In this document: positions 3,971 to 61,792 of the stretch, one piece after another
Layout: the number at the start of each line of letters is the position of its first letter
Numbering within the stretch: the first letter of the stretch is position 1
Assembly: GCF_029962835.1 (NCBI RefSeq)
Contig: NC_080578.1
Location: 49,779,001 to 49,843,000, forward strand
DNA length: 64,000 nucleotides
Origin: Magnolia sinica
Taxonomy: Eukaryota > Streptophyta > Magnoliopsida > Magnoliales > Magnoliaceae
Direction: 5' to 3'
Translations under genes and position numbers: made by a program
Notes under the pieces: generated by a model
The model's input: only the letters and a program-made list of their open reading frames with translations
The model's database searches: none
Told to the model about the DNA's origin: nothing

Positions 3971-4830
3971 CTAAGGGAAGGTTACAATTTGGACATTTAA
4001 CCATCATTGCCCATCAATGTGGACATTTAACCAATATTGCTCCCAAGCAGTGGCCCACATAGAGCCAAACATAAAGTGGGCCTATGGCCTCACACAAAGG
4101 CCTAATATATATCGCAATGAGCCTTATACAAGGGCTACATACACATCACTAAGGGCTGCATCACATGGTCCTAACTCACGTCACAGTGGGCCGCATCACA
4201 TGGGCCTAATACGCATCATGATGGGTCACAACCCATGGGCCTCAAATACAACAAGTGGGCCGCACTAATGGACCTCATACACAACAGGTGGGCCCTACTC
4301 ATGGCCTCAAATACATAACATGTGGGCCCTAAACATAAGTCTCGTATGCATCAAATAGGCCACGTATCTGGGTCTCGAATACATCAAATGGGCCATGCGT
4401 CATGGGCCTAATACACGTCACAATGGGCCACACGATAAGGGCCTAATACACATCATAATGGGCCTCACATAAAAAGTCTAATGTACACCACAATGGGCCT
4501 TACTTAAGGGCCATAAATACATCATGTCTGGCCTCACTCATGGGCCTCGAATACATCACAATGGGCCTTGCCCATAGGCCCATGCATACGTCTCAATGGG
4601 CCTTGCCCATGGGCCTCGAATAATCACAATGGGCCTTGCCCATGGGCCTAATACATATCATAATGGGCCTCGTACACAATAGGTTGGGCCTCATCATATG
4701 GGCTTCAAATACACAACAGGTGGGCCCTACACATGGGCATATATACATCATAGGTGGGCCCTGCACATGGACCTCAAATATACATCATGATGGGCCTCAT
4801 GGATGGACCGCACCAATGGGCCTCAAGTGG
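3540..4830. repeat. Long degenerate array of GGGCCTAATACACATCACAAT units
   Basis: About thirty loosely spaced copies of ATGGGCCTxxAATACATCACAATGGGCC-like units, roughly 35-45 bp each. The shorter counterpart in LTR copy 3 is 36180-36400. The array accounts for several spurious open frames on both strands. Confidence 0.75.
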
Positions 4831-38259: not shown

Positions 38260-41200
38260 TATAATGACCCTGAAAATTTTGTGCCAAGACCCGAGTACTA
38301 CCTCTATTCTTTCCTTAATAGCTTTTTGGGGTAATTAGCGCTAAACTCGATTGCTTGTGAAATTTACATCAATCACTCTAAATTTGATCTGCATGACTCT
38401 AAACCTGTAGAATGGTTAGCGCTAGGTTACTATGAAATCTGGGATTCATCGCTAAATCCAGTTGTTCTTGGAAATTTTTGGAAGTTCTGGATCGGACCTG
38501 GACCGCGCGTCGAAAGTCCGATAGCAATGATCTTAGGCAGTTGCGGTCACCATGTTGGACATGGCCATCACCTCAAAAATCAAGTCCAGATGATGTTCTA
38601 GGTCAATTTGATTGAGTCCGGAGTGAAGAGTGTGAGAACGGTTGGAAATTTAATGAGATTTTATGAAATCTGAGTCGTGTTGCTTGCGTGATGATTTTAA
38701 GCTATTTGACCATTGGATTCTGACCCAATTTCACCCTCTGATCAGGAAAGGTGGCCCAGGCATGTCCTTGTGCTTGTGGACCTGATCGAGATTCGGTGAC
38801 CATTGAATTGAGTGTGGTCCGCCACGGCTGATCTGAAGATCCGGTTGGTACGAAAACTCAGCTTGACCTAGATCCATGGTCAAAGAGCTTAAGTCCGACC
38901 TTTCGTGGTAATAGGCCCACCGGAAGTGCTTCGTTGGATCGAGAGAGGCTTGTTTTGGTTATACCCTAAGTATACCTTGGCCCTGGGGTTATTTTCATCA
39001 ATGTTAGGCCTATTTATAGACCTTAAAACCCTAGCTCTCTTTTCCATATGAATTTCCTAACCCTAGCTTAGAAAGAGAGAGGGAAAAAAAAGAGAAAGTG
39101 AGAGAGAAGTTGGTGAATCATCTTAGATTCTTTCTTGTTCTTCTTCTTCCTTGAACCTTCACTTTAGAATCGTTTTTCTGGCGATTCTGAGTTCATCTTT
39201 GGGTAAGTTAACCTAACCCTAATCTGTGTTAGAGCTTAGAATAGTCTTTGTGTTGTTGTAGCTCATTTCTATTCTTGCTTTAGGTTATCCTGTCGCCGTT
39301 GACGAAGACTTATCGTCTGAAATCAGTTCGGTGTTCTTTTCTGGATTAAGGTGCGGACTTTAATCATATAGGTTATGGTTTTCAAGGCTTTCAATGTTAG
39401 TGAATGGTTTATTCTTGCTATGGATGAGATTTCACATGCCAAATGTTATGTTTATGTTGCGTTCCTGATATGCATGTGTTACATTGAGATTTGTGTATTC
39501 TATGTGTATGTATAAAGTACCGTATGCGTATGAAATATGAACATGTGATTGCCATGATTATCTGTCGTGTACTTATGCTAATTGTATGTGCGGCAACTCC
39601 TTGGTAAAAGGGATTGTCCAAATGTGTGTATTTCAACATACGTCATGTATGTTGTATTATGTATTCTAAGTGTTTGTAGAAATGTCTGAATGATCTAAGG
39701 TGTGATATATCCACCTAGTATGGGCGTTGAGAAGTGATTCTCAACTCTCCCACTAGTGTGTATGATTTCCTTCACGCAAGTTACATTCCTTGTTATTTAA
39801 TATCAAGTCTTACTTATGTGAAATTCCATGTTAAGTTGATATTCTTCAAATGCTTACGTACTACATGATTTGAGTTGTTGTTCCATTACTATTATAAATT
39901 GTAGATATGAATATCTGTTGTAGTGGAATGTGTGTGGGACTATGCATTAGTCCAGGAAATTGGTAATCGGCCTTAAGTTCATGGCTGAGGTTGCTTTCGC
40001 CACGTAAGACGTGATTAGACGAACCCGAGTCGTATTAGAGTTGTTGGCAGTGGTTTGGCCAGGCGGAGTGTTTGCGCACTCTATGTCATTCAACCCAACG
40101 TGCACTCGTGCTAGTCAAGTTCGTCAAGTAACCCGATTATCCGATGTATGTTCACTATGTATGGACGCTGCTGCTTGAATCTAGGGTACCAAACTTACCA
40201 ATGAAATCCTATTAACCATGGTACCTTGATCCGCTAAGACTCATGAGTCGGACGTGGTAGTATGGGACACCGTGGTCGAGTTGTCGGCCTACGCTGGGGT
40301 GACGAGCCTCCCCGTAGTGACCAGTGAGCAACTAAACTCGTGAGCCGATTATGGTAGTATGAGACACTATATTCGTGCTGTCGACCTACATTGATTGGTG
40401 ACGAGCCCTTTGTAGTGACCTCGAGCATACCTGGATATCGCATTGAGGTGACGAGCCTTAGTGTAGTAACGAAGGTATGATAGGCGTGCATTGATTGATG
40501 ACGAGCCCTTTGCAACGACCTACAACTATATGATCTTATAAGATGTCTAGGACTGACGACCCTAAAATGGATCACTGTTTGGATGGTGATATGAGGAAGG
40601 TATCTTAGCCTCCCAATCCTGCTGTATGAAAAGGACTAATAACAACTTGGTAATCATGTTCATGCACTGCATTTGCATGTGCTTTGTAGACGTGGCGCAC
40701 TTTGAGGCGATGTCATGCGTAACGTAAGATGAAGACGCTAAGGGTGTACGCGTGAGGCATGCATCATTCTTCATACATTCTTGCATTAACAAGAGTACTT
40801 AGGACATGTTTAATTGTTCTGCTTTATCATTACTGCTTGATTGAACTGATAACATGTTAACATTTGCTTTATTGTTCCACTGAGTTGATCACTCACTCCC
40901 ACGTTCTGGGGCGGTGTTAAACACCCACCAAACTCTGTCTTAGCTGCTGATGTTGCAGATGCTGATGTGACTTCTGAGGCATAGCGGGAGATTGATGATG
41001 ATGAGGTTGCTTTCTCTTTTATGTAGTTTTCAGACGGGTTCTAGTGGGCCTCGTTCTGATGCGCGGGATGCTGGAATTTCTTTTGGGAATTAAATGATGT
41101 AATTTGATACTTGTAATTTTGATAGCAACACTTACATTACGACCTGGTATGTGTATGTATTTCAGGGATTCGCACATGTACACACATATATTTCTTTAAG

Positions 41201-41377
41201 TCTTCCGCTTGCTTTCTTCACTTATCCTTGAATTATATCTGTACTTTGGCTTAATCTATTCTATGTTTTATGCACTAATACAGACAACATACATCCATCA
41301 TCAAATATGTTGCATAAGTGATGTTTTGGAACTCGGGAGCTGAGTTATGCTCGACCTCCGAATTTCAGGGCATTACA
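38260..41377 (+). repeat. Solo family-A LTR in Copia-2 LTR
   Basis: 3118 bp, from TATAATGACC (a decayed TG end) to GGGCATTACA, in the LTR's own sense on the plus strand. Flanks GCACC (38255-38259) and ACACC (41378-41382) look like a target duplication with one difference. No internal region, purine tract or second LTR is present, so it is the product of LTR-LTR recombination. Confidence 0.85.
39011..39019 (+). promoter_or_regulatory. Putative LTR TATA box, leader and splice donor
   Basis: TATTTATAG, then CCTTAAAACCCTAGCTCTC. A GGGTAAGTTAACC donor-like site follows about 190 bp on (39200). The same order occurs in the other family-A LTRs. Confidence 0.4.
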
Positions 41378-44259: not shown

Positions 44260-45094
44260 TTAATGCAGGCAATAGTTCCAAGTGGTATCTTGATAGTGGA
44301 TGCTCCAAACATACGATAGGTAATTGGACCCAGTTTTGTGAGTATTCAAAATTTGATGGTGGTTTAGTCACTTTTGGTGATGGGAGCTCAGCCAAGATTG
44401 TTGGACAAGGGACAGTAGTTGGGCCTGGCTTGCCCAAGATTACAGATGCTCTTTGTGTAGAGGGTCTGAAACACAATCTCTTAAGCATTTCCCAACTTTT
44501 TGACAAAGAGCATTTTGTAACCTTCTCCAAAAATATGTGCAAGATCTCAAATCACATAGGTAAACTAGTTATGAAAGGTCTTCGTACAAGTGACAACTAC
44601 TATGTAATTGAAAGCAGTAGAGAAAGTGTCCCATCCACAAAGTGCCACATAGGCTTAAACAATGAATCCAAGCTGTGGCATAAAAGACTTAGGCATGTCC
44701 ACTATCAGAATTTGGCAAAGTTAAGCTCAAAAAACTTGGCGAAAGGTCTCCCTAAGATAAGGAAAAAGAAGAAGATTGTGTGTGGTGATTATCTAAAAGG
44801 CAAACAGATAAAAGTTGGACACAAAAAAACAACCACCATAGTAACTTCCAAACCTCTTGACCTATTGTATGTGGATTTAGTGGGACCTACTACAGTTGAT
44901 AGCCATGGGAAAAAGAGATATTTTTTTGGTAGTAGTGGATGATTATTCAAGATTCACTTGGGTTGCCTTTCTTCAGGAAAAATCTAATGCATTTAAAGAA
45001 TGCCTGAAGTTGGCAAAAAGGATTCAAAATGAAAAAGGGTATTTCATAAAATGAATTAGGAGTAATCAAAGTGGAGAGTTTGAGAATGATCAAT
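44260..45094 (+). pseudogene. Copia-2 protease and first part of integrase (fossil)
   Basis: Protease signature SSKWYLDSGCSKHT near 44276, GAG-pre-integrase box LWHKRLRHVHYQNLAKLSS near 44674, and integrase core DLLYVDLVGPTTVDSHGKK near 44860. Ends where the CACTA entered, in sequence that corresponds to the GEFEN block of the core. Confidence 0.85.
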
Positions 45095-45210
45095 CACTAC
45101 CAAAAAAATGACCAAAGGCTACGGACTATTTTGGTTTTTGGCTACGGCTATAAATCGTAGCTCATTTGCTACAGATTAAAACCGTAGCTAAAACTATCTA
45201 AACCATAGTA
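45095..45210. repeat. CACTA left terminal inverted repeat and subterminal repeats
   Basis: The first ~31 bp pair with the complement of 61759-61789: CACTACCA, an A-rich tract and AAAGGCTACGGA are shared. Subterminal GGCTACGGCTATAAATCGTAG and ACCGTAGC motifs follow up to about 45210. Confidence 0.9.
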
Positions 45211-45239
45211 AAAAGATAACTCCGCCAGACATACGTACA

Positions 45240-45600
45240 ACCTTGGATACGTCATAAGGGACTCTACGAGGCCCATTAAAATGTGTGTGCTCCATCTAAT
45301 ACGTCTATCCATTTTTTAAAGAATATTTTAGGCGGGAACCCAAAAAATGAAGTAGATCGAAAGCTCAAGTGGACCACATGGTAGGAAAGAGTGGAGATTA
45401 ATCCATTGATCGATGGTGTGGTTCAATTAGACCTTTAATTTGCCTAGATATTGGGTTCATTTCCTACAAAAAAATATTACAAAATTAATGGACGGAGTGG
45501 ATGTATCGATTCCATCAATATGGACCCCACAAAGCCCTTGACAAGGCCGTCCGTCCAGATCCCATCAAATGTGAGCCGTGGAGGGCCCGTTACAGATTGT
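45240..45600. repeat. Dispersed GTGGACCACA/CCGTCC repeat inside the CACTA
   Basis: Contains CTCAAGTGGACCACATGGTAGGAAAGAGTGGAGATTAAT-type wording, related to 58390-58720 and probably a widespread repeat family in this genome. No coding signal. Confidence 0.5.
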
Positions 45601-45689
45601 TCAATTGTTACGGTCATTTTAGCTTTTAGCTATGGTTAAAAACTGTAGAAAGACCGTAGCAGGTAAAATATGTAAAAAACCGCGCTGCC

Positions 45690-45925
45690 TTTTATCTTTT
45701 CCTCCTATCACGGAATTCATTTCCCTCCACTCACTCACCCCTATTCCCTCTCACGTCCATCCCTTTCTCTCTCCCCTCTCTCTCTCTCTCTCAATCTCCC
45801 GCACCCGTCTTCTCTCTCTCTCAATCTTAATCTCACACCTCCCTTCTCTCTCTCTCTCGTATCCCATTTTCAAAGCCCTTGCAATCTCTCTCTCTCTCGC
45901 TATCTCAACGGACGTGGAAAGGTGA
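45690..45925 (+). promoter_or_regulatory. CT-rich leader-like segment with splice donor
   Basis: Pyrimidine-rich, with many CTCTCTC runs (45770-45900), ending ACGGACGTGGAAAG|GTGAGC, a good splice-donor context at about 45921. This looks like a captured plant 5' UTR exon and could be the transcription start of the chimeric cargo. There is no direct evidence of a promoter. Confidence 0.4.
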
Positions 45926-47372
<1,447 letters not shown>

Positions 47373-48709
47373 GTAATCTATGCTCTGTACTAAACTCTTA
47401 TTGTGATCCCTGATGTTCCACTTAGGGAATCAAAATTGTCTTGGAGAGTAACTCAGCTATCTATCAGATCCTAAATGTCACATTCTAGCATGGTCAGAAT
47501 CCATGCATGTATGATTTATAAGGGATTTAACTCATAATGGTGGTGGCTAAAACTGAGTCGACTTGGATGAGTTGGCTTGGTGTCAGCAAGTGTTGATGTC
47601 ATTGTTCTAGTTTGCAATCTCCTCCCATAGCTGGGGCAACATATAGAACTTGTTTCTGTTAAGTTACACAGTTTCTTCTCAATTGCCTCAGTATTTTTTA
47701 CTTACTGATTTGGATAAGATTGTCTGTTCAGTGTGCACAGAGAGTTGGTGCAAACACATCTTCAAAGTCCCACCATCCAACAATTTGTGGGTGCGAATAG
47801 TAGCATGCATTTCAAACTTGAGTATGGAGAATTCAAATTTCAAAGTACCTATGGATTCCTTCCAGCTACCATTAAATGGTGGGAGTTGATGAATTGTTTG
47901 GTCCTTCTATTGATGGTTGGCTTTAATGTATATTTTTAAGTTGTGGCAGTGTAAATTTTTTAGTCCACAGAAATCTCATCGAGGGGCCAAAGCATTTGGA
48001 TATGTTTGAAGTTGATTCATGCTTCCACTACCACCATTTCTAGGACCGATTGACGCTTCACCCGCACTAGTACCTACATGGTTTGAAGCTCGTATTGGAT
48101 GAAAATGGTAATTTCATATCACAATCTTAAATAGTAATCTAAGAAAGAACCAGTTGGGGTGATCTCAGCAATGGAATTAGCCTGTTTCTCCATGCTAACT
48201 TGTATCATAGATTCAACATGTCAAAGCTAAATGGAAGTTCTTGACCATCAAATTTGTCCTTTTCGCAGGCTTTTGTTTTATTTTTACACAATCATTTATG
48301 TATAGGCTGTCGATCGAAGTCTACGAGCATGCTTCATCCACACCGAGATCCATCAAATCAAGTCTGGATTACCACCTACACTGCTTGTAGAGAATTGACC
48401 CAAGACAGTTTTCACACCCCAATGCACCATGGTGCCCATTGCTTCTGTTCTGCTCATGGTATGTTTTAACACAAATAGTAGCATATTATTTTTAGGTTTT
48501 AATTTGATTATTATTTTTTATATATGTTCTTGCTTTTATAGGATAATCTACTAGGAATGCTAAGGCGATTGGACATGATGTAGAGAATGGTCATGAATGA
48601 AAATATATTTCCCTTTTATGGATTTTTGCAATTCAATTAATTAGTGCATCCAAATGCAGCCCAAACGTAGCTAACATAAATTCATTAATTGGGTTCTTGC
48701 TTTCAATAG
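47373..48709 (+). other. CACTA interior with possible unidentified exon
   Basis: Two stretches might be further captured exons but I cannot name them: 47729-47900 (open frame with SSMHFKLEYGEFKFQSTYGF) and about 48308-48461 (after a TATAG acceptor-like site, before GTATGT). The rest is AT-rich. Confidence 0.3.
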
Positions 48710-48772
48710 GTTTGCTGGTAATTTAATCAAGGGGCAGACAGTTGGAGTGATCGGAGCAGGTTATATTGGATG
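48710..48772 (+). pseudogene. HPR1: Captured piece of hydroxypyruvate reductase (HPR1)
   Basis: After a TTTCAATAG acceptor the frame reads FAGNLIKGQTVGVIGAGYIG, then a stop. It corresponds closely to FVGNLLKGQTVGVIGAGRIG of plant peroxisomal NADH-dependent hydroxypyruvate reductase, where it forms the start of the Rossmann NAD-binding fold (GxGxxG). That enzyme reduces hydroxypyruvate to glycerate in photorespiration. Only about 20 codons remain, with an immediate stop and no following HPR sequence. Other D-2-hydroxyacid dehydrogenases share the GxGxxG loop, but the NLxKGQTVGVIGAG context points to HPR1. Confidence 0.72.
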
Positions 48773-49564
48773 AAAGAATAAAATCTATTATTTCTATGTT
48801 TATTTCCAAGTTAGTTTATTCTTTGATACACTTAATGATTTATTATTGATGGCCTTAATACATGAAATCTAGAAACTCCTGCATCAAAAACCAATGAGAA
48901 CAGATGGATAAGAATGAAGTGCAGCCACAAGGTCCTTCCCAATGCTCCAAAGACAATGGCCACATCAAAAGAACAGGTGGTCTTCATCAATTCAACTTCT
49001 ATGATTCTCTTTTACTCAGAACTAGTCTTTTTTTTTTCTTTTTGAAATATTCCCACAATTTTTTCATCTTGGTTTTTTTTCTTTTAAGCTATATATGCCT
49101 TTTTCTCATCTTTGTGGTGACTAGTCAATGGTAAATTTTTTTTTAAAAATGAAAGTCTGGTCAAAGACTCCATGCACAGAAGTTGTTTCTTAAGGGGATT
49201 GAATTTGTTTGTATTTTTTGAGTATTGGGTCCCTTTATTTGATGTTTTATAGGCCTTTGAGGGAGTGGAATGTGGGAAAGATTGGATTTTTAAGGAGTTG
49301 GTTGAGACTTGAGAGCTTTTCTGTTGGTGGAGGCTTTTGGCATTGAAAGTTGGGATTTTTATTTTTTATTTTTTGGTCTGAATCTTTGTTTTTTGGACCT
49401 TTTTTGTCTGAAGGGGTGTTTGGTTTCTGGGTTTTTGTTAGAAAAAGGGGACTTGAAGTTAGAGGTTTTTAGCTTAAAAGATGGGATCTTTTGTCTGAAT
49501 TTGGGCTCCCTTTGGTGTTTTTGGTTGTGGATTTGGAGAATTGAAGTTGGTTTTTTAATTGCAG
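48773..49564 (+). other. CACTA interior; possible small exon 48880-48977
   Basis: A piece bordered by CTAG and AACAG|GTGG is open in one frame (TPASKTNENRWIRMKC...) but unidentified. 49020-49560 is a T/G-rich stretch whose long open frame (TTT/TTG codons) is compositional. Confidence 0.3.
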
Positions 49565-49686
49565 GATGCTTGACTTTCACTCTGCTTGCTCCCTACTCTA
49601 CTGTCAGCGCTCTTGCCCCTTTGATCCTCGTGATCAGGGTCAACATGGTGAAAGAGGCCATCGAAGATTAGAAGCGGAAAACACAG
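49565..49686 (+). pseudogene. ALA: Captured exon of P4-type phospholipid flippase (ALA family)
   Basis: Reads CLTFTLLAPYSTVSALAPLI, then VNMVKEAIED, a stop, and KRKTQ. Plant aminophospholipid ATPases carry ..PLAPYSxVSxxxPLxxVxGxTMxKExxEDWRRKxQD at the end of the second membrane segment. Here the W of EDWRR is TAG. These proteins flip phospholipids across membranes. The exon starts after TTGCAG and ends at CACAG|GTAATT, so both splice borders are kept. Only one exon is present. The ALA family is secure from the motif; which paralogue is not. Confidence 0.78.
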
Positions 49687-52001
49687 GTAATTTCCTTTCT
49701 GAATTGATATTATTAGTATTCTTTGTATATCTGTAATATATATCTGTATGCATTGCTATTGATAGTGGATAATTCAGTAGCCATTGATGATTGTTGCTAG
49801 TGATAGAGAGCTGACAACTGGATGGGTAGAACCATCTGATCACTGCAATTTTTGGCCTCTGGCCCATCCATATATGGCTCACCAAATCAACAATCCCAAT
49901 CGCAACATATGTTTTTTAGGTCCACAGTGCAGGAGCTGCATAGATCTTTAATGTCAAAAACTGGGTCCCACCACTGTATAGGTGTTGTGGCCTAAGAACA
50001 TGTAATGATCCTGCTTTCGTAACAGAATTTATCAATTAAAAATAGAACAAATGGGAGAAAAATAACTGTCCAATGTTGAATATTTCAGGTAAAGTTAAGA
50101 TTAAGATATATCATGTGTTTGAATACCTCTAAAGGTGACTGTTTACTATGTCAATCCCAAAATCAGATTGGTTGAACAATCCTAACCTTTGATTTGTTGG
50201 AATCCAGTAGTCAGATAATCAAATAAGTGGAACCAAACAACTCAAGGGGGATTTTAGCGCTGGATACAACTATGGCGGGGCTAAATAGCTCAATGGCTTG
50301 AGTCAACAACCCATGCCATGGGGCCACGCTTCAACATACACTTGAGGTCGTATTTTGTACAAATGACCATTTTCTTTTACAAAAATCATTGGATTCTCGG
50401 TGACCACATGTAGGACTGTCAACAAGCTAGGCCCAGGCCAAGCAAAAAAAAAAATTTAATAAGACCGTCCTGACGGCTCGGCCCTACCAGTTTAGAGTCT
50501 AGGCTGAAGCCAGCCCCGGGTCTGCTGTTTTAAATGGTTGAGTCTTAGCAGCTTGGACATGTCAACTTAGAGTCGGAGGTAATTTGTGTTGTTGAAATGG
50601 ATTGGGTCTAGGCAAGTCCGTTGACTCAGACATGTCGCATGGGACTCGATCCAAGTCTTAAGACCATGATTTGGAATGATTTCCTCATTCCCCTCCCTCT
50701 CAAGTAAGGCTATTAACTGGTTGGTTTCAAGCCAGGTCCAAGTGTATTCATACCTAGACTTGCATGAAGTGGTTGTGCTTGGGTTGTTGCTTTCAGTTCC
50801 AGGTACTGTGTTTAAGCCCAGATCTAGTTGGGTTTAAATACCCTCTTGTCTTGGGACCTTGTATTTGGTTAGGTTTTGGATTTATTCCAGTTTAGGACAA
50901 TCTGGATTTAACCATTCATGTATATTGTTTCATTCCTTCATGTGATATACTCGGAAAACTATTGATTTCATCATTAGGTATTTAAAGATTTTCAACTTAT
51001 CATGTGCAATATGTTAATTTATAATACATTAGCACCAATATGATTTCAACAAGCATCCATGAATTTGTGGTTAGGATTTTTCAACCAAAATGATTTTGGT
51101 ATTATTACATATCTATATTTGAGTCCCATAATTTGGATTAATTAATTTGTGTTGATGTACCCATCTTAACTGAACCTGATGAAATTCAAATTATCACATG
51201 AGACCTAACATGACCCTTAAAAAAAAACAAAAAAAATAAATCAGGTCTAACATTGTGGACCTATGACTAACTTGAATTTTAAATGGGTAAAAAAAAAAAG
51301 AAAAAAGAAAAAAGAACCATGATCCATTTAAAACCGGATCGGTAGTGACCCTGATCCACTTTGGACTGCTTGACTGTAAGCAAATTTTGAGACCTTATGA
51401 ACAAGTTGGATGGCAATTAGCCATCATAGTAGCCCTGTGAAGTTTTCAAGGTGGGTGTCATTATCCGTACTACTTCCTGTGGTGTTATCTACTTGAGCTT
51501 TGGAATTGCCTCAATTTCTATTTCAGGTCTAAAATGAGCTCATAATTAGTGGATGACTCTCCATTCTCATTTTTATCAGGCCTGCATTAAGAGTAATAAT
51601 AACACACTACAAGAATGCCGCCTCTACATTCTCATTTTTCTCAGCCTTGCAACCCAAAAGAAATTAGCAACTGCAACTCGGCAACATATCAGTTGTTTGG
51701 ATGTGCCAATCTATGAGAAAAAGAAAACACAAAAGAAGTTCTGAGTACTTCCTGACAGCTACTTCTTGAAACAATTCACAATAGAAAGCTGAGGTGAATA
51801 CAGCTGATTAGTTTAGAGGATATTCCACAGTGAGATGTGAGAGTTCTCAAAACTGCAACTAAGAAAGTTGAAATTCACCATAATCCATGGGCTGCAATCT
51901 ATGTTAAGCATATCTTCATGTCTCTAATGCCCCACTGAGCTTGTACACGTTGGTGTTCATAGACAGAATAAAAGATCATAGACTTGTGAAGGAAATGTTA
52001 A
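49687..52001. other. Non-coding interior of CACTA
   Basis: Mostly AT-rich, intron-like sequence with A-runs near 51220 and 51290. A piece around 50405-50640 with GTCAACAAGCTAGGCCCAGGCC resembles the ends of hAT-type miniature elements but I cannot define its borders. 51640-51745 is open (LATQKKLATATRQHIS) but unidentified. Confidence 0.4.
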
Positions 52002-52145
52002 GGCCCTTTTCGTCAGAGGCCTGAAAATGAGTTCATCCCATTTTAGTTAACAGTAATTATGTATTACAGGTCCTGAACTATAATACATAATCACTATTAA
52101 TAAAGAAGAAATAAACTCATTTTTAGGTGTCTACCAAATAGGGCC
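52002..52145. mobile_element. 144 bp miniature inverted-repeat element (MITE)
   Basis: Imperfect terminal inverted repeats of about 35 bp: GGCCCTTTTCGTCAGAGGCC...AAAATGAGTT at the left and the complement of AACTCATTTTTAGGTGTCTACCAAATAGGGCC at the right. The centre also pairs (ATTATGTATTA / TAATACATAAT), so the whole can fold back. Clear target duplication not seen (TTA left, TAC right). Confidence 0.6.
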
Positions 52146-52191
52146 TACACAACAATTCCCTTGATTTATGCAAAACTAGGCTACCCAAGAA

Positions 52192-52358
52192 GAAAGTTTC
52201 CCTATGCAGGTAAGTTGTGTACACATATCCCTTTTTATATTTAAGCCATTCCCTTGATTTATGCAAAACTAGGCTACCCAAAATTTATGGACAACTCTCA
52301 TTGCCTTTGATCTGCTAGAACTAGCATGTGTGGATTGGCAAAAGTGTGAATGCACTTA
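52192..52358 (+). repeat. Segmental duplicate, copy 1
   Basis: From GAAAGTTTCCCTATGCAG|GTAAGTTGTG to GAATGCACTT, nearly identical to 56684-56849. Includes a strong splice-donor context (CAG|GTAAGT). Confidence 0.9.
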
Positions 52359-52686
52359 CCATAATTAGTAGCAGTGAGGATCTCCCACAATATTGATAAA
52401 ACTCTATAAAATAGGAAATAACTCAAATTATTATCATAATATGTTGTGTACTCTCTTGGGGCTGTGTATTGGGGCTCAATACATAGTCATATGGTTGTGT
52501 ATATAGCTGAACATGTATATACCCTTACCATTGTGTATATTCTGCCATATGAGGAATTTCCTACATATATACCATCAACATGATTGTTTTATTTGTACAC
52601 AGAGATAGACATGCTCTAGGGAGTAACATGAAGAAAACGTAGAATTAGTATATATAGGGAGTAACATGAAGAAAACGTAGAAACAG

Positions 52687-52804
52687 GTCCCCTGGAAATG
52701 CATACGTTGAAGGCGATGCATCAAGTGCAAGTTATTTCCTAGCAGGCACAGCAGTCACCAGTGCCACTGTCACAGTTGAAGGTTATAGCACAAGGAGTTT
52801 ACAG
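52687..52804 (+). pseudogene. EPSPS: Captured exon of EPSP synthase
   Basis: Reads [33 protein letters not shown] and STRSLQ, the unmistakable part of plant 5-enolpyruvylshikimate-3-phosphate synthase ([26 protein letters not shown]). In the native plastid enzyme this belongs to the shikimate pathway, and the GDASSASYF segment lies at the substrate site. The exon is bordered by AAACAG and CAG|GTATTA. No stop within it, but GG of TGGTV is replaced by SA, and only one exon is present, so no enzyme can be made. The next exon downstream, after a ~66 bp intron once the solo LTR is set aside, is from NOT1. Confidence 0.9.
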
Positions 52805-52859
52805 GTATTACAACTCTCTTCCATGTCTGCATTTGCTGCTTTTTGTACTCATGTACATG

Positions 52860-55800
52860 TGTAACGCCCTAAAATTCGGGGGTCGAGCATAACTCAGCTC
52901 CCGAGTTCCAAAACATCACTTATACAACATATTTAATGATGGATGTATGTTGTCTGTATTAGTGCATAAAACATGGAATAGATTAAGCCAAAGCACAGAT
53001 ATAATTCAGGGATAAGTGAATAAAGCAAGCAGAAGACTTATAGAAATATATGTGTACAAGTGTGAATCCCTGAAGTATATACACAAACCAGGTCGTGATG
53101 AAAGTGTTATTATCAAAATTACAAGTATCAAGATTACATCATTTTAATCTCAAAAATAATCCCAGAGTCCCGCGCATTAGAACAAGCTCGCTAGAACCCG
53201 TCTGAAAACTGCATATAAGAGAAAGCAGCCTCATCATCATCCATCTCCCACTCTGCCTCAGAAGTCGCATCAACATCTGCAACATCAGAACCTAAGACAG
53301 AGTCTGGTGGGTGTTTAACACCGCCCCAGAACGTGGGAGTGAGTGATCAACTCAGTGGAACAATAAGGCACTGGTTAACATGTTATCAGTTCAATCAAGC
53401 AGTAATGATAAAGCAGAAAATTAAATAAATCCTAAGTACTCTTGTTAATGCAATGATGTATGCAGAATGATGCGTGCCCTCACGCGTACACCCTCAGCGT
53501 TTTCATCTTACGTTACGCATGACACCACCTCAAAGTGCGCCACATCTACAAAGCACATGCAAATGCGGTGCATGGATATGATTACCAAGTTGTTATTAGT
53601 CCTTTTCATACTGCAGGATTGGGAAGCTAAAGTACCTTCCTCATATCACCATCTAAACAGTGATCCATTCTAGGGTCGTCAGTCCTAGACTTCTCATACG
53701 ATCATATGGTTTTAGGTCGTTGCAAAGGGCTCGTCACCAATCAATGCACACCTTTCATACCTTTATTACCACAGTTCGGCTCGTCACCTCATTGCGGTAT
53801 CCAGGCATGCTCGAGGTCACTACAAAGGGCTCGTCACCAATCAATGTAGGCCGACAGCACGAATATAGTGTCTCATACCACCATAATCGGCTCACGAGTT
53901 TAGTTGCTCACTGGTCACTACGGGGAGGCTCGTCACCCCAGCGTAGGCCGACAGCTCGACCACGGTGTCTCATACCACCATGTCCGGCTCATGAGTCTTA
54001 GCGGATCAAGGTACCATGGTTAATAGGATTTCACTGGTAAGTTCGGTACCCTAGATTCAAGCAGTAGCGTCCATACATGGTGAACATACATGGACAATCG
54101 GGTTACTTGACGAACTCGACTAGCACGAGCGCACGTTGGGTTGAGCGACATAGAGTGCGCAAACACTCTGCGTGGCCAAACCACTGCCGCCAACTCTAAT
54201 ACAGCTCGGGTTCGTCTAATTACATCCGCTGTGGCGAAAGCAATCTCAGCCACAACCTTAAGGCCGATTTCCGATTTCGTGGACTAATGCATAGTCCCAC
54301 ACACATTACACTACAACAGATATTCATATTGAATGTAGAACAGTAAAGGAACAACAACTCAAATCATGGTACATAAGCACTTGAAGATTATCAACTTAAC
54401 ATAAATGTAAGCATAAGAAATGCTTGAAATTAAATAACAAGGAATGTAACTAGCAAGAAGGAAAATCACGCACACTAGTGGGAGAGTTGAGAATCGCTTC
54501 TCAACGCCCATACTAGGTTGAAACATCATACTTTAGATCATTCAGGCATTTCTACAAACACTTAGAATACATAAAACAACATACATGACGTATGTTGAAA
54601 TACAAGCATTTGGACAATTCCTTTTACCAAGGAGTTGTCGTACATACATCTAGCATACATACACAACAAATAATCATGGCAAACACAAGTGCATATTTTA
54701 TACGTATACGGTACTTTATACATACACATAGAATACACAAATCTCAATATAATACATACATATTAGGAACACAACATAAACACAACATTTGGCATGTGAA
54801 ATCTCATCCATAACAAGAATAAATCATTAACTGGCATTGAAAGCCTTGAAAACCATAACCTATACACTTAAAGTGCGCACCTTAAGCTAGAAAAGAAACA
54901 CCGAACTGATTTAGACGAGTTGTCTTCGTCAATGGCGATAGAATACCCTAAAACAAGGATAGAAATGAGATACAACAATACCAAGACTAATCTAAGCTCT
55001 AACACAGATTAGGGTTAGGTTAACTTACCCCAAGATGAACTCAGAATCGTCAGAATAACGATTCAAAGTGAAGGTTCAAGGATGTAGAAGAACAGGAAAG
55101 AATCTAAGATGATACACCAAACTTCTCTCTCACTTTCTCTCTCTTTTCCACTCTCTTTCCAAGCTAGGGTTAGAGAAAAATCGTATGGAAAAGAGAGCTA
55201 GGGTTTAAGGACTATAAATAGGCCTATCTTTGATGAAAATAACCCCAAGGCAAAGGTATACTTAGGTTATAACCAAAGTAAGCCTCTCTCGATCCAACGA
55301 AGCACTTCTGGTGGGCCAAACACCACGAAAGGTCGGACTTAAGCTCACTGACCATGGATCTAGGTAAGGCTGAGTTTTCCTACCGACCGGCTCTTCAGAT
55401 CAGTCGTGGCGGACCACACATAATTCAATGGTCACAGAATCTCGATCAGGTCCACAAGCACAAGGATATGCCTGGGCCACCTTCCCTGATCAGAGGGTGA
55501 AATTGGGTCAAAATCCAATGGTCAGATAGCTTAAAATCATCGTGCAAGCGACACGACTCAAATTTCATAAAAGCTTAATAAATATCCAACCGTTCTCACA
55601 CTCTTCACTCCGAACTCAATCAAATCGACCCAGAACATCACATGGACTTGATTTTCGAGGTGATGGTCAAGCCCAACATAGTGACCGCAACAGCCTAAGA
55701 TCATCGCTATCGGACTTTCGATGCGCGGTCCAGGTCCGATCCAGATCTTCTAAAAATTCCCCAGAACAACTGGATTTAGCGATGGATCCCAGATTTCAGA

Positions 55801-55953
55801 GTAACATAGCGCTAACTAATCTACAAGTTTTGAGTCATGCTGATCGAATTTAAAGTGATTGATGCAGATTTCACAAGCAATCAAGTATAGCGCTAATTAT
55901 CCAAAAACAACTACTTAGGGAAAGATAAGCACAAAATTTTCAAGGTCATTACA
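52860..55953 (-). repeat. Solo family-A LTR inside CACTA
   Basis: 3094 bp, TGTAACGCCC...GTCATTACA, with a perfect 5 bp duplication ACATG at 52855-52859 and 55954-55958. No internal domain. Minus-strand sense. It sits in the short intron between the EPSPS and NOT1 fragments. Confidence 0.95.
55212..55220 (-). promoter_or_regulatory. Putative LTR TATA box
   Basis: On the minus strand TATTTATAG, followed by TCCTTAAACCCTAGCTCTC. Conserved position among the family-A LTRs. Confidence 0.4.
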
Positions 55954-55969
55954 ACATGTCATCTCACAG

Positions 55970-56095
55970 ATCTTCCAATCAGACTATCAGTATTGGACAT
56001 GACTCCATTTACATTCAGCACCAAACTAGCTGCAGTTGCTTCTCGTAAGGAACACATAAATCTGGAGCAATGGTTGAACGAAAATCTGAACACAT
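55970..56095 (+). pseudogene. NOT1: Captured NOT1 exon (fragment A)
   Basis: After a TCTCACAG acceptor the frame reads DLPIRLSVLDMTPFTFS (the first G of the D codon belongs to the preceding exon), then KLAAVASRKEHINLEQWL and NENLNT, closing at TAA. This matches the CCR4-NOT complex scaffold NOT1 (DLPIRLSVLDMTPF, ASRKEYLNLEKWLNDNL). NOT1 assembles the mRNA deadenylase complex. The native continuation (YKDVFFEDCLKFLKE) is absent here; the DCLKFLKE exon appears 2.8 kb on at 58889. Confidence 0.85.
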
Positions 56096-57035
56096 AAACT
56101 TGTGACTTTGCTTATTGCATGCATGCCGAATTTCAATTAGGATAAGTGATGGCCATGGATCAGTAATCCAGACCATTCATCCATTGCATCTCAGTGGACA
56201 GATTGTGCCCTAAGAATCCCCTGGATTTGTTGCATCCTTTTAGCAACAAATCTAGGACTTCTCTCAATCGGAACTAACCACCTACAGGCACCTATACTGC
56301 TATCTGCAGTACAAGGCATTTTTTAGCTCTGAGATGTAAAAAAGGTTTTTTTATTTACCTTTTCTTTTTCCATTTCGTGGTTGAACACTCGTACTACAAA
56401 TTATGGTAGAGGTGCCTGGAGGTTATCAATTCTCTTTTTTAATTCAGTGTGGGTCACTAGATTCTCCTACTATAGTCCACAAATGGAAAGGTTAACATTG
56501 TCTCATAGTAGATTTTTTTTTACTAATTACACTGTTTGTCGAAGATCCTGAAATTTAATATGGATTACAGGAATTTGCAGCTCCAAACAAATCATTATTC
56601 CAAAATTGAAAGCCTAGCTACCTACCGATTTGCAGCCCCAAACAAATCACCAAAGAAGAAATTGATGTATCGACTCACCAATCGAAAGTTTCCCTATGCA
56701 GGTAAGTTGTGTACACATATCCCTCTTTATATTCTCACCATTCCCTTAATTTATGCAAAACTAGGCTACCCAAAGTTTATGGACAACTCCCATTGCCTTT
56801 GATCTGCTAGAACTAGCATGTGTGGATTCGCAAAAGTGCGAATGCACTTGGCATTTCAAATGCCACCCGCTGTTTTGATAGAAAGATATTATGTTTTAAA
56901 TAATATATTTAATTTAAGCAATTATTATGTTTGATAGTATCAATTGTTTCAAATGCCACCCACTGTTTTGATAGAAAGATATTAAGATTTTCAGACCTCA
57001 CCTCTTCTCTAACCTTAGCATGCATTTTATACCAG
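56096..57035 (+). other. CACTA interior with second copy of segmental duplicate
   Basis: Contains 56684-56849 (copy 2 of the 52192 segment). A possible exon around 56574-56701 includes AAPNKSPKKKLMYRLTNRKF and ends CAG|GTAAGT, unidentified. Short direct repeats TTTGCAGC(T/C)CCAAACAAATCA lie at 56573 and 56628. A ~38 bp direct repeat TTTCAAATGCCACCC...AAAGATATTA lies at 56854 and 56947. Confidence 0.4.
56684..56849 (+). repeat. Segmental duplicate, copy 2
   Basis: Near-identical to 52192-52358. Together the two copies bracket the EPSPS exon and NOT1 fragment A. Confidence 0.9.
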
Positions 57036-57218
57036 ATGTGCCGAGATCTCCAAGCCCGACTGGCTACTGCAGAGGCAGAAAGCGCAGGAGCTGAACAGGA
57101 GAAGCATGAAAAGGAGGAATCTGCACAGAAGGCTTTTGCTGAACAAGAACTCATCATGGAAATTAGGGTGGTCCAAGAGTCAAAGAAACTTCATCAGGAG
57201 GCAAAGGAGAATGCGATG
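57036..57218 (+). pseudogene. Captured coiled-coil exon, possibly CUE-domain family protein
   Basis: 61 codons open from ACCAG to GCGATG|GTAATG: MCRDLQARLATAEAESAG, then EKEESAQKAFAEQELI and VVQESKKLHQEAKENAM. Strongly charged heptads, surely a coiled coil. The following exon (57302) reads LREFLMDRGHVVDVLQ. The pair resembles a plant protein family I remember as annotated 'CUE domain / ubiquitin system component', but the identification is from memory and only moderate. No stops in this exon. Confidence 0.5.
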
Positions 57219-57301
57219 GTAATGATAAAGGTGACAGCTACGAGCAACAAAGACTAATATAATTCATAGCATTGTCTGATCATCTTGATGCTCTGTTGTA
57301 G

Positions 57302-57348
57302 CTACGGGAGTTCTTAATGGACCGTGGTCATGTTGTCGATGTATTACA
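57302..57348 (+). pseudogene. Second coiled-coil protein exon
   Basis: After TTGTAG the frame reads LREFLMDRGHVVDVLQ and meets ACA|GTAAGT. In phase with 57036-57218 across an 83 bp intron, so the two were captured together with their intron. Confidence 0.55.
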
Positions 57349-57498
57349 GTAAGTCTCCATTCTCTCGTTTCTTAAATTATAAAGCTAGAGGTTTCAGCTA
57401 CTTTTGGACTAAAATTCCCAAGAAAAAAATTCATGTGGGACAGTCCAGTCCAGTCCAATGTTGCCAATATTGTAAAGAGTGGGTGGCATTTGAAACAA

Positions 57499-58308
57499 CA
57501 AATGCTTTTCTTATGTGGTATATCATGGGATTAGCTATCTGTTGATTAATTTTTCTTGGGTATTTTAGTCCAAATGCAGCCTAATCTAACTTTGATTTAT
57601 TTGAAAACTTGGTTGGTCATTCATTCATTTCCTAACAATGAAATTTTGTCATTACTAGACAAAAAACAAGCATCTTCTGGTCATAAGATGAACTGTTATT
57701 AGCATTCCTTTCTTGTCACTTAGTCCAGACTCTTAGTTGGCCCCAGTAGTAGCAGATAAATGGATCTGACTTCGCCACATTGTGATATTGCATTGAAATC
57801 TTTCTACTTTAGCTTATCAATCAGAAGAGAAGGATACACTATCAAGGCTCATTGATGTTGTCATCATAGTAGTAGCCTTGTCCCAGCCATTTGGGGTCAG
57901 CTTTCACATGAAATGCATGAATCTTGATGTTTTCCTCGGATGAGAACAGTTGAAAACAGAACTTGATTTCTCAAACTTGATGAAGTTTGAAGGATAAATC
58001 TTAACTGTTTAAAAAATACATCAATTCTTTTTACTTGACCCAATTTCTGATGAATTTACAAGGATAGACTTTGAGAATTGTTGGGTCCTTAGTGAGAAAC
58101 TAGAGATGATGTTTGGCCGAACAAAAAGGTGTTTTTGGTTTTGCTAGCAATGGTGTTGTTGGCCTCCACATTTCTGTGACCCTGACCATTCATCTGGTGG
58201 TGCCATCATGAATTTGTTCCCAAAGTTCACTTCTGGAAAATCTTGTACATGCAGTTTGACTTTTCCAATTGAATGTGGACATGACATTTTAAGGAAATCG
58301 AATTGCGT
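57499..58308. other. Non-coding interior of CACTA
   Basis: AT-rich sequence without recognisable exons or repeats up to the hairpin at 58309. Confidence 0.4.
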
Positions 58309-58350
58309 ACTGAGTAACTCAGTACACTCTTATCGTACTGAGTTACTCAG
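58309..58350. repeat. Hairpin, 16 bp perfect stem
   Basis: CTGAGTAACTCAGTAC at 58310-58325 pairs with GTACTGAGTTACTCAG at 58335-58350, with a 9 base loop. Each arm is itself near-palindromic. It lies at the edge of the dispersed repeat that follows. Confidence 0.8.
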
Positions 58351-58354
58351 AAAC

Positions 58355-58735
58355 TCAGTTGGGCCCAACTTGAATGTATGTGGTCTATCCACTCCGTCCA
58401 TCCGTTTTTCCATATAATTTAAGGGGTTGAGCCCAAAATTGAATCATATCCAAAGATCAAGTGGATCATACCACAGGAAACAGTGGAGATAATGATTTCG
58501 ACTGTTGAAACCTTCCTAGGCCCCACAGTGATGTTTATTTGTCATCCAACCTGTTCATAAGATCATACAGACATGGATGAATGGAAAACAAAAATATAAG
58601 CTTGATCCAAAACTTTTGTGCCCCCCAAGAAATTTTCAACCATAGTAGTTCATTTTATCTGTTTCATGTGGTGTGGTCCATTTAAACAAAAATATAAGCT
58701 TGATCCAAAACTTCTGTGCACATATAGGGATAATT
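58355..58735. repeat. Dispersed repeat with CACAGGAAACAGTGG wording
   Basis: Contains CCACTCCGTCCATCCG, CAAGTGGATCATACCACAGG and TGTTTATTTGTCATCCAACC. I recognise this as a very abundant repeat in magnoliid plants (memory, not a search). An internal duplicate AATATAAGCTTGATCCAAAA occurs at about 58595 and 58690. Confidence 0.55.
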
Positions 58736-58888
58736 TTTTCGAGGTGATTCACATGCTTTATTTCATTACCATTGTATGAATGAACTTGTCCTCAATACAT
58801 GCTTCATTTTTTTTTTCTCTTAAAGCTTCTTGAACATGAAAATGTTTAGAGTCCACTCATGGACATGTCTTTCTTTCTTTTTTCCCAG

Positions 58889-59011
58889 GATTGCCTCAAG
58901 TTCTTAAAAGAAATACCTTCTACAGCAACAAATGATGCATCTGCCAATCCTTTCCAACATTCCAGCTCTGTCATGAATCTTTATCTAGAGACAAGTTCTA
59001 CTCTTTTGAAG
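58889..59011 (+). pseudogene. NOT1: Captured NOT1 exon (fragment B)
   Basis: 41 codons between TTTCCCAG and AAG|GTTTTT: DCLKFLKEIPSTATNDASAN, then PFQHSSSVMNLYLETSSTLLK. This corresponds to the NOT1 segment following fragment A in native order. Frame intact, no stop. Confidence 0.82.
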
Positions 59012-59103
59012 GTTTTTACTTCCAAAATTTCTTTTTCTATTACCTATACATAGGGTCATAGAGAACTATTATGCATATTGTAGTTTACATGAACATTTCA
59101 CAG

Positions 59104-59235
59104 GTCCTTCAAGCCCATTTTGGCCAGCTCATCTCCCACCAACTTTCTGAGGAATTGAGAAGGTTGCAGGTATCATCTGTGCATGCTAATCCAAGACTGC
59201 AAAATGGTGGAGCTACAGATTCATCAACACATGAT
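59104..59235 (+). pseudogene. NOT1: Captured NOT1 exon (fragment C)
   Basis: After a CACAG acceptor: VLQAHFGQLISHQLSEELRR, then VSSVHANPRLQNGGATDSST, matching NOT1 (VLQAHTGQL, NPRLQNGGATDSST). In phase with fragment B across a 92 bp intron, so B and C came as one genomic piece. The frame runs on to a stop near 59268 in unrelated sequence. Confidence 0.85.
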
Positions 59236-59879
59236 GCATCATATCTAATTATTCACTGGCCTCTTTAGATCAACAGAAAATAATCTTTTTTAGCATCTCT
59301 ATCCAAACACAGTTCAAAATGTATGATTATTCACTGGCCCTTCACTCACTATTGTTGTTTAAATATATCTTAATGCTATTGTTGTACAGAACAATGGTAG
59401 CAGATTTTTGAAGTGTGTGGAACAGTTGTTGGGGTATGAAGGGTTTAGTTGAACAGTTGCTGTTGTATAGAACAGTTGGTGAAGGGTTTTGCAGATTTTC
59501 AGAGAGATATTTGAATTTAGCTTTGTTCTTTTGCTCTTTTTTCTTGAATTTGAGGTTGGGAGTTTGGAATTTCAGGTCCTCAGGGAGAGCGATGGATTTC
59601 GATGTGATCTTTAGTCTTTCTTCATGAACTGGAAGTAGGTATTTGGAATTATAATTTTCATTTTTTTTCTTTTTTATTCCGACAGAGATTTGAATTTTAG
59701 ATGTGTTGCTCTTTCCATGTGAATCTGATTTTCTTCTAACATCTTTCTTACTGTAGTGGGGTGTTAAGAAGCCTCAAATCATGGAAAATTTTATCACGAT
59801 CTTGTCGAATGTAGGTCTGGGATGGCCATGTTCAGTCTCGGTAAGATCATTGATATGATATCTGGTCCTCGTGTTACAG
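59236..59879. other. Non-coding interior of CACTA
   Basis: T/G-rich intron-like sequence between the NOT1 and TOP2 pieces. A region near 59500-59640 resembles 49310-49560 in composition. No exon recognised. Confidence 0.4.
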
Positions 59880-60945
59880 CAGAAGGGTTTCACACCATTC
59901 CCTAAAACCAAAGGCGTTGATACCAACGCGGCAATAGAAACTGAAGAAAATGAAGAGACACTGGAGGTGGGAAGAGCTGCAAGAGCAAGTGATTATGAGT
60001 ATCTACTATCAATGTCGATTGAAACCTTGATGCTAGAAAAGGTTCAAGAGCCGTTGGTTGAAAAGGGAAAGCAAGAAATAGAGGTGGAGGAATTGAAGAA
60101 GGAAACTCCAACATCTTTGTGGATGAAAGATCTTGATGCTTTCATTACAGCACTTGATGTGCGTCTCATCTCATCCCAATTTTGAGGAAATGACTTTCCA
60201 TTTTTTTTTCTTTTTTTTTTGGGGTCTTTCTTGTCTGATTTTCAATCGATGCAGGAGCATGAGAAGGAAGAAGCCCAGGTGGAGGAGGTGACAGGACAGA
60301 CGGAGGGTAGGGTAGGCAAGCCTCTCGCTAAGGCTTCTAGACAAGTTGAAAAGAACCCAAGAAAGAGCAACACCAAGAAAGCCAATGAAGCAAATACTAT
60401 TGTTGAATCTGTAGCATCAGTTAGTACTACAGCTAAAACTGGTACGCATCATTCTTTTCTGATGAATAAAAAATCATCTTTGTCAGTAACCTAGTGTTTG
60501 GACGTACACGCCAATCGGCAGCATAGAAATTGAAACCCGATTGGCGTGTTTGAACGTACACGCCAATCGGCAGCACAGAAATTAAAACCTAAAATGGATG
60601 GATTATTAGTTACCATTTTTTTCCCATCTTGAAGATTTCATTCATCTCAATGCATGTTATCTTTTTCTCTCCGTAGGACATGTTTCTGAGGGGGTAAAAC
60701 CCAAAGGTAGGGGAGCTCCAAAGAAGGCTCCTGCTAGAAAGGTGTGCTTGCAAATCCTGAAACTTCTTATTTCCCAAGCATCTCCCTATTTTTGTGGACT
60801 TCTCATTGCCTTTTTAGTTTGGATCTTTCAGCAGAAAATGTCGACTGCCATTGATAGTGAAGAGGAAGATGATGAGGTGCTCGAGCTGAAAGAATGACTG
60901 GCAGCATATAACATTGATTCTCCTTCAGATCAAATAGGTATATGA
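59880..60945 (+). pseudogene. TOP2: Captured C-terminal exons of DNA topoisomerase II
   Basis: Four exons in native order with introns kept: 59880-60158 (QKGFTPFPKTKG, ASDYEYLLSMSIETLMLEKV, SLWMKDLDAFITALD), 60255-60441 (Lys/Glu-rich, GRVGKPLAKASRQVEKNPRK), 60677-60741 (VKPKGRGAPKKAPARK) and 60832 to about 60945 (MSTAIDSEEEDDEVLELKE, stop, LAAYNIDSPSDQ). This is the end of the catalytic core and the basic/acidic tail of plant type II topoisomerase, which passes DNA duplexes through each other. The usual LKERLAAYN has CGA changed to TGA, a likely methyl-CpG decay. All splice borders are AG/GT. N-terminal ATPase and cleavage domains are absent. It is the longest cargo piece, about 190 codons. 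Confidence 0.85.
60498..60592. repeat. Tandem duplicate in TOP2 intron
   Basis: Two copies of CGTACACGCCAATCGGCAGC followed by A(T/C)AGAAATT(G/A)AAACC, at about 60503 and 60556. Confidence 0.8.
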
Positions 60946-61284
60946 TCATCCATGTGCAGTAAGCTTTCCGATCAAAGCGAAGCTAAGAATAGGGTGTTAG
61001 TTGATTGTAAATTGATAACCAGTAGATGCACATCCATGGAGTTTTCATTTGCGATTGTTGAAAAGCTATTTGGCTGCGAGAAGGCATTGGATCTTATTGT
61101 TAATGAGAACTTTAAATAGACATATAACTATTATGTTGGCATTGTACTTTTGTGAATGGAAATGAATTATTGTGTTTGATTAAATGAATGAATGATTTAG
61201 CCATGAAGTATTTATATATATTAGCTTATATGAGTTATCAGGGTGAACTACAATGGTAAGAGCTACCATTACTAATTAAAATTT
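60946..61284 (+). other. Possible TOP2 3' UTR
   Basis: AT-rich tail after the TOP2 piece with several AATGAATG/AATAAA-like motifs around 61150-61200 and no further exon. It probably includes the captured gene's 3' end. Confidence 0.35.
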
Positions 61285-61789
61285 TAATTTACAATAAACA
61301 TTAGCTACGGCTATTAAGCGTAGCCCTTTGTTGAAAACCATAGCTCTTGCTAAATTCAACTTTTTGCTACTATTCTCATTCTTCTTTTAGCTACAGATAA
61401 AATCCGTAGCTGTATATAATTTTAAACTACGGACAATATTGCTACGGATTTAATCCATACCTATAGTTTCATTGACTACGGCTATTAACCGTAGCCTTGT
61501 ATTTGAAAATCGTATCTGTAGCTAATTTCAACCTATTGCTACGGTCCTTGTTCAACTTTTAGCTACATATATAATCTGTAGCTGTAAATACTTTAGCGCT
61601 ACAGAAGCAATGGCTACGGATTTAATCCGTATTCATTATCTCTGTGGCTACGGATTTGATTCGTAGCCATAGCTTTTAGACCTATGGCTACAACACTAAT
61701 GGCTACGGTCGTGCTACGGATTTCAACTGTAGTCATAGACTTTTAGCTACGGTTTTTATCCGTAGCCTTTACCCTATTTTCTGGTAGTG
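61285..61789. repeat. CACTA right subterminal repeats and terminal inverted repeat
   Basis: About fifteen copies of GCTACGG / CCGTAGC in both orientations from 61305 to 61770, then CCGTAGCCTTTACCC and the terminus CTGGTAGTG. In CACTA elements such subterminal repeats bind the element's transposition protein. Confidence 0.9.
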
Positions 61790-61792
61790 AAT

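Follow-up and report, generated by a model that had tools for sequence, protein, structure and literature searches.

A 64,000-nucleotide stretch of Magnolia sinica contig NC_080578.1 (hereafter the window, meaning the whole stretch of DNA that was analysed) contains a 16,695-bp CACTA (En/Spm) transposable element at window positions 45095–61789, which carries pieces of several host genes, all on the plus strand. The element begins with CACTACCA at 45095 and finishes with TGGTAGTG at 61789, and the trinucleotide AAT stands on either side (45092–45094 and 61790–61792). As in other CACTA elements, its imperfect 31-bp terminal inverted repeats (TIRs; the 5' TIR at 45095–45125, plus strand; arms 45094–45125 and 61759–61790, 81% complementary) start with CACTA, the target-site duplication is 3 bp long, and arrays of short subterminal repeats lie at both ends. 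The palindromic motif GCTACGGN7CCGTAGC, with up to three mismatches allowed, matched 13 times in the window, 12 times inside the ends of the element (three left and nine right, 0.4 expected). A 5' family core (45095–45906, plus strand) comprises the TIR, GCTACGG repeats at 45141, 45168 and 45629 and a CT-rich leader, and a 3' family core (61268–61789, plus strand) comprises a GCTACGG repeat array and the 3' TIR. The opening 19 bases of the element occur once within the window. When the empty site was rebuilt from the flanks and a single AAT, one integrase frame of a Copia retroelement read through the insertion point; this retroelement has stops of its own. A preliminary description of this DNA had called the borders firm, and its account of both ends, of the AAT duplication and of the resumed Copia integrase frame proved correct.

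The same description saw no recognisable transposase, and indeed no Pfam model for one matched in 12 translations covering the six frames of the element. Scans for tRNAs and Rfam families gave no match. Three features place the element among the Pack-CACTAs: it encloses fragments of host coding genes, the host genome has source genes at other loci (for TOP2 and ALA; the genome searched, G000, has 1,838,573,281 bases in 127 contigs), and it has no transposase of its own. Helitrons are rolling-circle elements, and the features looked for as their hallmarks (5' TC, a 3' hairpin followed by CTRR, insertion between A and T, no duplication) are absent here, the ends being CACTA with an AAT duplication. 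A 3,094-bp solo long terminal repeat (LTR), TG...CA with an ACATG duplication, is nested inside (52860–55953, plus strand), so that the element proper measures ~13.6 kb; the 16.7 kb given earlier is correct as a span, the 3.1-kb solo LTR having been overlooked. From these features and the comparisons below, we are confident that this is a non-autonomous, multi-source Pack-CACTA that was assembled stepwise and then multiplied.

The cargo comprises pieces of seven genes. The CDC48 exon piece (47214–47372, plus strand), which retains its donor GT and has two in-frame stops, matches CDC48 homolog A (E 1.4e-28) and the AAA Pfam model. The EPSPS exon (52687–52804, plus strand; E 5.2e-11, EPSP_synthase Pfam model) retains both splice sites. 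NOT1 is represented by exon A, in a 5' part cut at AACACATA (55967–56096, plus strand; E 3.6e-10) and a 3' remainder (58719–58743, plus strand) that includes the donor GT and was recognised by comparison with the sibling copy c3 (see below), and by a second piece (58889–59235, plus strand) that consists of exon B (58889–59011), an intron and an open stretch (59104–59235). Exon B, at E 0.04 under the cut-off, extends the profile of exon A (62–97, then 107–147), and the open stretch, which has no Pfam match of its own, was assigned to NOT1 by eye. CDC48, EPSPS and NOT1 exon A were also detected in frame-wide searches of the element (NOT1 weakly in one). The TOP2 piece (59861–60955, plus strand) has four exons, three introns and one stop, and its best match is Magnolia sinica TOP2 (E 4.2e-59; 181 of 213 exon residues identical). 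A coiled-coil protein is represented by two exons (57036–57218 and 57302–57349) and an intron (together 57036–57349, plus strand), with a match in both exons to one uncharacterised Actinidia protein (60% identity, E 1.3e-3). As the TOP2, NOT1 and coiled-coil pieces contain introns, DNA was captured and not mRNA.

The two remaining pieces are an ALA-type P4-ATPase exon and an HPR1-like exon. The ALA exon (to ~49683) with the intron that follows it (49552–49997, plus strand) has an in-frame TAG. In direct searches it gave a P4-ATPase match only at E 1.4, which is not significant, no match at E ≤10 among 88 candidates, no Pfam match and otherwise an unrelated permease at E 5.3. Its identity is settled by the source locus at G000:C2:134.64 Mb, which matches 49552–49814 at 92% and 49807–49997 at 91%, because the exon next to the matching stretch there is P4-ATPase (E 1.9e-45). 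The HPR1-like piece (48708–48771, plus strand), preceded by AG, rests on 21 residues that score 14.7 bits, under the Pfam cut-off of 25.1; a search against solved structures returned mostly 2-hydroxyacid dehydrogenases, none of them significant. It likely belongs to the D-2-hydroxyacid dehydrogenase family, with HPR1 as a putative name for the exact gene. The stretch 48618–48771 matches G000:C17:14.2 Mb at 96%, and the reading frame there extends beyond the break in the window. At G000:C17:14201300–14203499 (L045), stretches that resemble serine carboxypeptidase by eye come after the HPR1-like piece, so the locus may be a further chimera instead of the source gene. Thus, of the seven sources named in the preliminary description, six find support in searches or in a source locus, and HPR1 is weak and holds at family level only. 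Two further stretches (47640–48480 and 48870–49040) look exon-like by eye and are possibly an eighth source; frame-wide scans gave no family match there.

To place the element in its family, we searched the genome with its 5' end (45095–45395, 301 bases). This gave 42 rows, of which at least 40 (window included) are near full length at 87–100% identity, the best 40 of 1,987 candidates having been scored. Ten of the 39 other copies were compared over 20 kb each, and the 3' end was in reach for seven of these siblings; in c2, c6 and c8 no 3' end appeared in the 20 kb compared, and these three were excluded from cargo counts. Perfect 3-bp duplications flank five of the seven two-ended siblings (c4 TTT, c5 AAC, c9 GTG, c10 TGT and c11 AGT). 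Similarity in the 5' core stops between 45548 and 45906 in nine of the ten siblings and continues further in c3. A nested small repeat, suspected by eye at 45215–45590, was rejected at least for 45215–45395, which belongs to the 5' end of the family. Sibling c5 (L015) contains domain matches to Transpos_assoc, Transposase_21 (2.4e-70), DUF4218 and DUF4216, so at the level of domain matches a relative that shares the ends of the window element has a tnp2-type transposase, as CACTA elements do.

The siblings differ in what they carry. TOP2 is found in c3, c4, c5, c7, c9 and c11, with varying internal deletions, and is absent from c10; among the seven gene pieces, c5, c7, c9 and c11 show TOP2 alone and c10 shows none. 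A common GCP (gamma-tubulin complex protein) piece is found in c9 and c11, and as their interiors are largely alike, GCP was counted as one capture. In c10 there are DUF3223 and MYB, plus an ELMO match under threshold. At ~8300–8782, c5 holds the last part of ribosomal eS1 (159 residues, 103–261 of 261; E 1.6e-78). It also has ~3 kb in common with c4 at 93% (c5 928–3931, c4 1021–4077) that is missing from the window element and may belong to an older layer of the family. Copies that share cargo occupy different sites, as exemplified by c4 with its own TTT duplication. The preliminary description had staked its interpretation on the recurrence of the terminal repeats with other contents, and the same ends do recur in this genome with GCP, eS1, MYB, DUF3223 and one transposase. 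It had also read the element as a natural record of repeated capture. The different subsets of pieces in the siblings bear out the repetition; the record was not gathered by this copy alone, as much of it is common to siblings elsewhere.

Three of the captured blocks were followed across copies. The TOP2 piece gave 41 rows at no fewer than 40 places (best 40 of 110 candidates), the intact parental gene among them. This parent lies in G000:C1:228500–238499, where exons span residues 322–1479 of the M. sinica protein (1,479 residues in all). Its 85% match to the window covers 59860–60955 and goes no further. All 14 TOP2 copies compared (window included) continue past the end of the parental match into the 3' end of the family, and because this right junction is common to all of them, the capture looks single. 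The mean distance is 0.074 among the copies and 0.063–0.105 between copies and parent; these similar values place capture and spread close in time. The HPR1–ALA stretch gave 44 rows, seven of them full-length (window included; best 40 of 53 candidates), and the NOT1 piece gave at least 40 rows (best 40 of 71 candidates scored).

Next, we compared the internal order of the copies. Sibling c3 shares 45095–52157 with the window at ~94%, save for a 0.5-kb insertion of its own, and then continues in the order 56097–56852, 52192–52858, 55954–56096, 58701–58964, 59344–59650 and 59860–61789. NOT1 exon A is unbroken in c3 and reaches the donor site, and the coiled-coil block is absent there. In the window, exon A halts at 56096 and its final 25 bases, starting CACATA, stand at 58719–58743; the 2.6-kb block inside it (56097–58718, plus strand) consists of segment 56097–56852, which in c3 and c4 precedes EPSPS, and the coiled-coil block. 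We rejected the possibility that exon A was captured already truncated, as c3 has the exon whole and the cut therefore looks secondary. A tandem duplication, formed by a switch at 5–7 shared bases, seems to account for the left junction, because c3 likewise reads AACACAT just upstream of its 56097-like segment (junction microhomology CACAT/AACACAT). A 166-bp stretch is found twice in the window (52192–52357 and 56684–56849, 94%) and once in c3 and c4. At 52152–52188 (plus strand), where c3 and c4 have a different block, the window and a sister copy on C11 contain a near-copy of 52245–52281, as would be expected of templated filler. Just before it, at 51996–52151, two 77-nt arms that are 74% complementary with 2 nt between them form a hairpin-like small repeat; much of this stretch is also present in c4, L037 and L038.

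The C11 sister (L031, L042, L043) has the order of the window from 49119 to 61789, minus the LTR, at 92–98%. The block 56097–58718 is also found there, up to 58306, and the HPR1 part lies ~3.7 kb further upstream, past other DNA (G000:C11:63550029–63553728) that interrupts the HPR1–ALA block and has ~210 bp of the block on both sides. The solo LTR is missing from c3, c4 and the C11 sister. In two further copies, L030 and L039, 57565–58703 is directly joined to 59437–61789 (L030 was covered from 57633 on). These may be deletion derivatives lacking NOT1, or the result of exchange between copies; the idea that they represent the other parent of a recombinant was dropped, as the tree permits simple deletion.

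The simplest reading, we infer, is that pieces of genomic DNA, introns included, were added between the ends in several steps, and that assemblies with cargo then moved and multiplied. TOP2 would have entered once, close to the 3' end, and then spread, with EPSPS, NOT1 and the CDC48–HPR1–ALA block coming to be present in subsets of copies. In the lineage common with the C11 sister, the segment would have been duplicated and the coiled-coil block joined into NOT1 exon A. In the final step, an LTR retrotransposon would have inserted in this copy and later been reduced to the solo LTR. The steps are ordered in part by siblings in which the CDC48–ALA block, the coiled-coil block or the LTR is missing. 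The microhomology and the filler together suggest template switching during repair, with faulty repair or replication switching at short homologies, and the DNA capture between neighbouring elements of a published model may feed such switching. Because c5 combines these ends with a CACTA-type transposase, an element of its kind is the likely mover.

Several observations weigh against this history. The order of the steps rests on parsimony among few siblings, and template switching is read from the junctions. Sibling c3 is flanked by TAA and TAG, and c7 is without a clear duplication. L030 and L039 are without NOT1 58704–59436, yet they cluster with the window and L031 with a support of 0.97. 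The search for intact parental genes in the same genome, proposed in the preliminary description, found source loci for TOP2 and ALA only, of the seven pieces; none stood out for NOT1 among the best 40 of 71 candidates, and the C17 locus of the HPR1-like piece looks incomplete. The history as a whole is a reconstruction from comparisons of DNA sequence.

Alternatively, a single catastrophic repair event might have collected all seven fragments, with siblings losing pieces afterwards. The deletions inside TOP2 in some siblings fit such losses, L030 and L039 could be deletion derivatives, and junctions with microhomology are compatible with one complex repair. However, many separate deletions would be needed, as c5, c7, c9 and c11 carry only TOP2 of the seven and c10 carries none, and c5, c9, c10 and c11 have other genes instead. 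Moreover, c3 has NOT1 exon A whole and no coiled-coil block. We therefore regard a single event as improbable and stepwise assembly as the better account.

A further question is whether the exons, once spliced, make up a functional chimeric gene maintained by selection. Every identified exon lies in sense orientation, with AG/GT sites retained in many, and the exons of the soybean element Tgm-Express1 are spliced into chimeric mRNAs (PMC1947982). Selection is nevertheless very unlikely here, as in-frame stops are found in CDC48 (two), ALA and TOP2, and the third codon position shows no excess of differences. Between window and c3, the differences at codon positions 1/2/3 are 30/38/33 (1,314 exon bases in 10 of 11 exon pieces, one piece being absent from c3 and one partly aligned, with the coiled-coil exons left out), and between window and c4 they are 22/31/24 (869 bases, 6 of 11 pieces). 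With 92.3% identity to c3, the exons are no better conserved than five non-coding stretches (92.3–95.4%). We take them to be neutrally drifting passengers whose splice sites are usable but which do not make up a working gene. As a CT-rich leader precedes sense exons with AG/GT sites, a spliced chimeric RNA from the element is possible.

The orientation of the cargo was analysed by scanning both strands against Pfam, in the window element and in the unique interiors of c4, c5 (up to 10 kb), c9 (except its last 0.5 kb), c10 and c11. All seven host domain families above the Pfam cut-off (AAA, CNOT1_HEAT, EPSP_synthase, GCP, Ribosomal_S3Ae, DUF3223 and Myb) are sense, and no antisense family was found in the 18 sibling translations of the interiors scanned or in the window element. 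Under a fair coin, seven alike has p 0.016, assuming independence. Matches to eIF2A, GATase and ELMO under threshold are likewise sense and were excluded from the count. We tentatively propose, as an idea that is somewhat less likely to be right than wrong, that across the family cargo orientation is non-random and sense to the transposase, and that the family may act as a mobile exon cassette whose own leader would drive a long, spliceable transcript; antisense cargo might be selected against, or capture might be tied to transcription.

It is scarcely credible that a Helitron nested within the CACTA brought the exon collection, with the CACTA ends just enclosing it. Maize Helitrons do typically carry several unrelated fragments each (helA type 0–12, mean 3; PMC3288121). 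However, a scan for the 3' hairpin-CTRR-T gave one candidate on the plus and two on the minus strand (against a mean of 0.75 and a largest count of 4 in 40 random sequences matched in composition), and the cargo is not framed by any convincing end pair. In addition, all 14 copies compared have TOP2 attached to the CACTA 3' core, and the cargo of siblings differs block by block.

Elsewhere in the window, LTRs of the solo-LTR family lie at 38308–41377 (minus strand) and 1–2631 (plus strand), 90% and 89% identical. There are also two direct long-repeat pairs, 9692–12744/30440–33524 (88.5%) and, within it, 18037–20096/26919–28958 (93.9%); both look like LTR pairs of nested retrotransposons.

The collecting of gene pieces by transposons is often argued from single elements, and here the siblings allow it to be traced. 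Within one genome there are source genes for no fewer than two pieces, a relative bearing a transposase, siblings bearing subsets of the cargo and junctions legible at single-base level. This brings stepwise capture, exchange among copies and an orientation filter, if there is one, within reach of direct tests in a magnoliid CACTA family. The value of the element lies in this traceable history and in its sense-only cargo (7/7 domain families). It also carries a warning for annotation, as TOP2 and NOT1 pieces at 40 or more scored places each can be miscalled as genes. In the literature searched, of which most subscription papers were beyond reach, we found neither a CACTA pedigree of comparable resolution nor any CACTA elements described as having sense-only cargo, and none of the accessible literature on Magnolia CACTA elements or stepwise CACTA capture describes this element.

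The element has a close counterpart in Tgm-Express1 (Zabala and Vodkin; PMC1947982), a 5.7-kb soybean CACTA with five host-gene sources that lies in the intron of a gene; it too carries exonic and intronic fragments from a number of unrelated host genes. In contrast, the Magnolia element measures ~13.6 kb minus its LTR, has seven sources, siblings and two source loci, and is inserted in a retroelement. The exons of Tgm-Express1 are still spliced. Pack-CACTAs of maize and Arabidopsis, in which longer elements hold more source loci (PMC8903248; review PMC13317346), likewise share their ends with transposase-bearing CACTAs and carry coding DNA from several loci; here the host is a magnoliid, and the TOP2 and NOT1 blocks each occupy at least 40 scored places. 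On chromosome 3B of wheat, where CACTA elements also carry gene pieces, 140 capture events involve 145 genes, with 17 cases of possible exon shuffling (PMC4290129), so about one gene per event, unlike the seven sources here. In maize Helitrons, which hold up to 12 fragments, stepwise gain was inferred from overlapping fragment sets among siblings (PMC3288121), and the Magnolia siblings, with their overlapping sets, are read in the same way as sequential gain, although here the ends are inverted repeats with a target duplication. Multi-gene Pack-CACTAs are thus already known from soybean (Tgm-Express1) and maize, and what sets this element apart is how unusually clearly its history can be traced.

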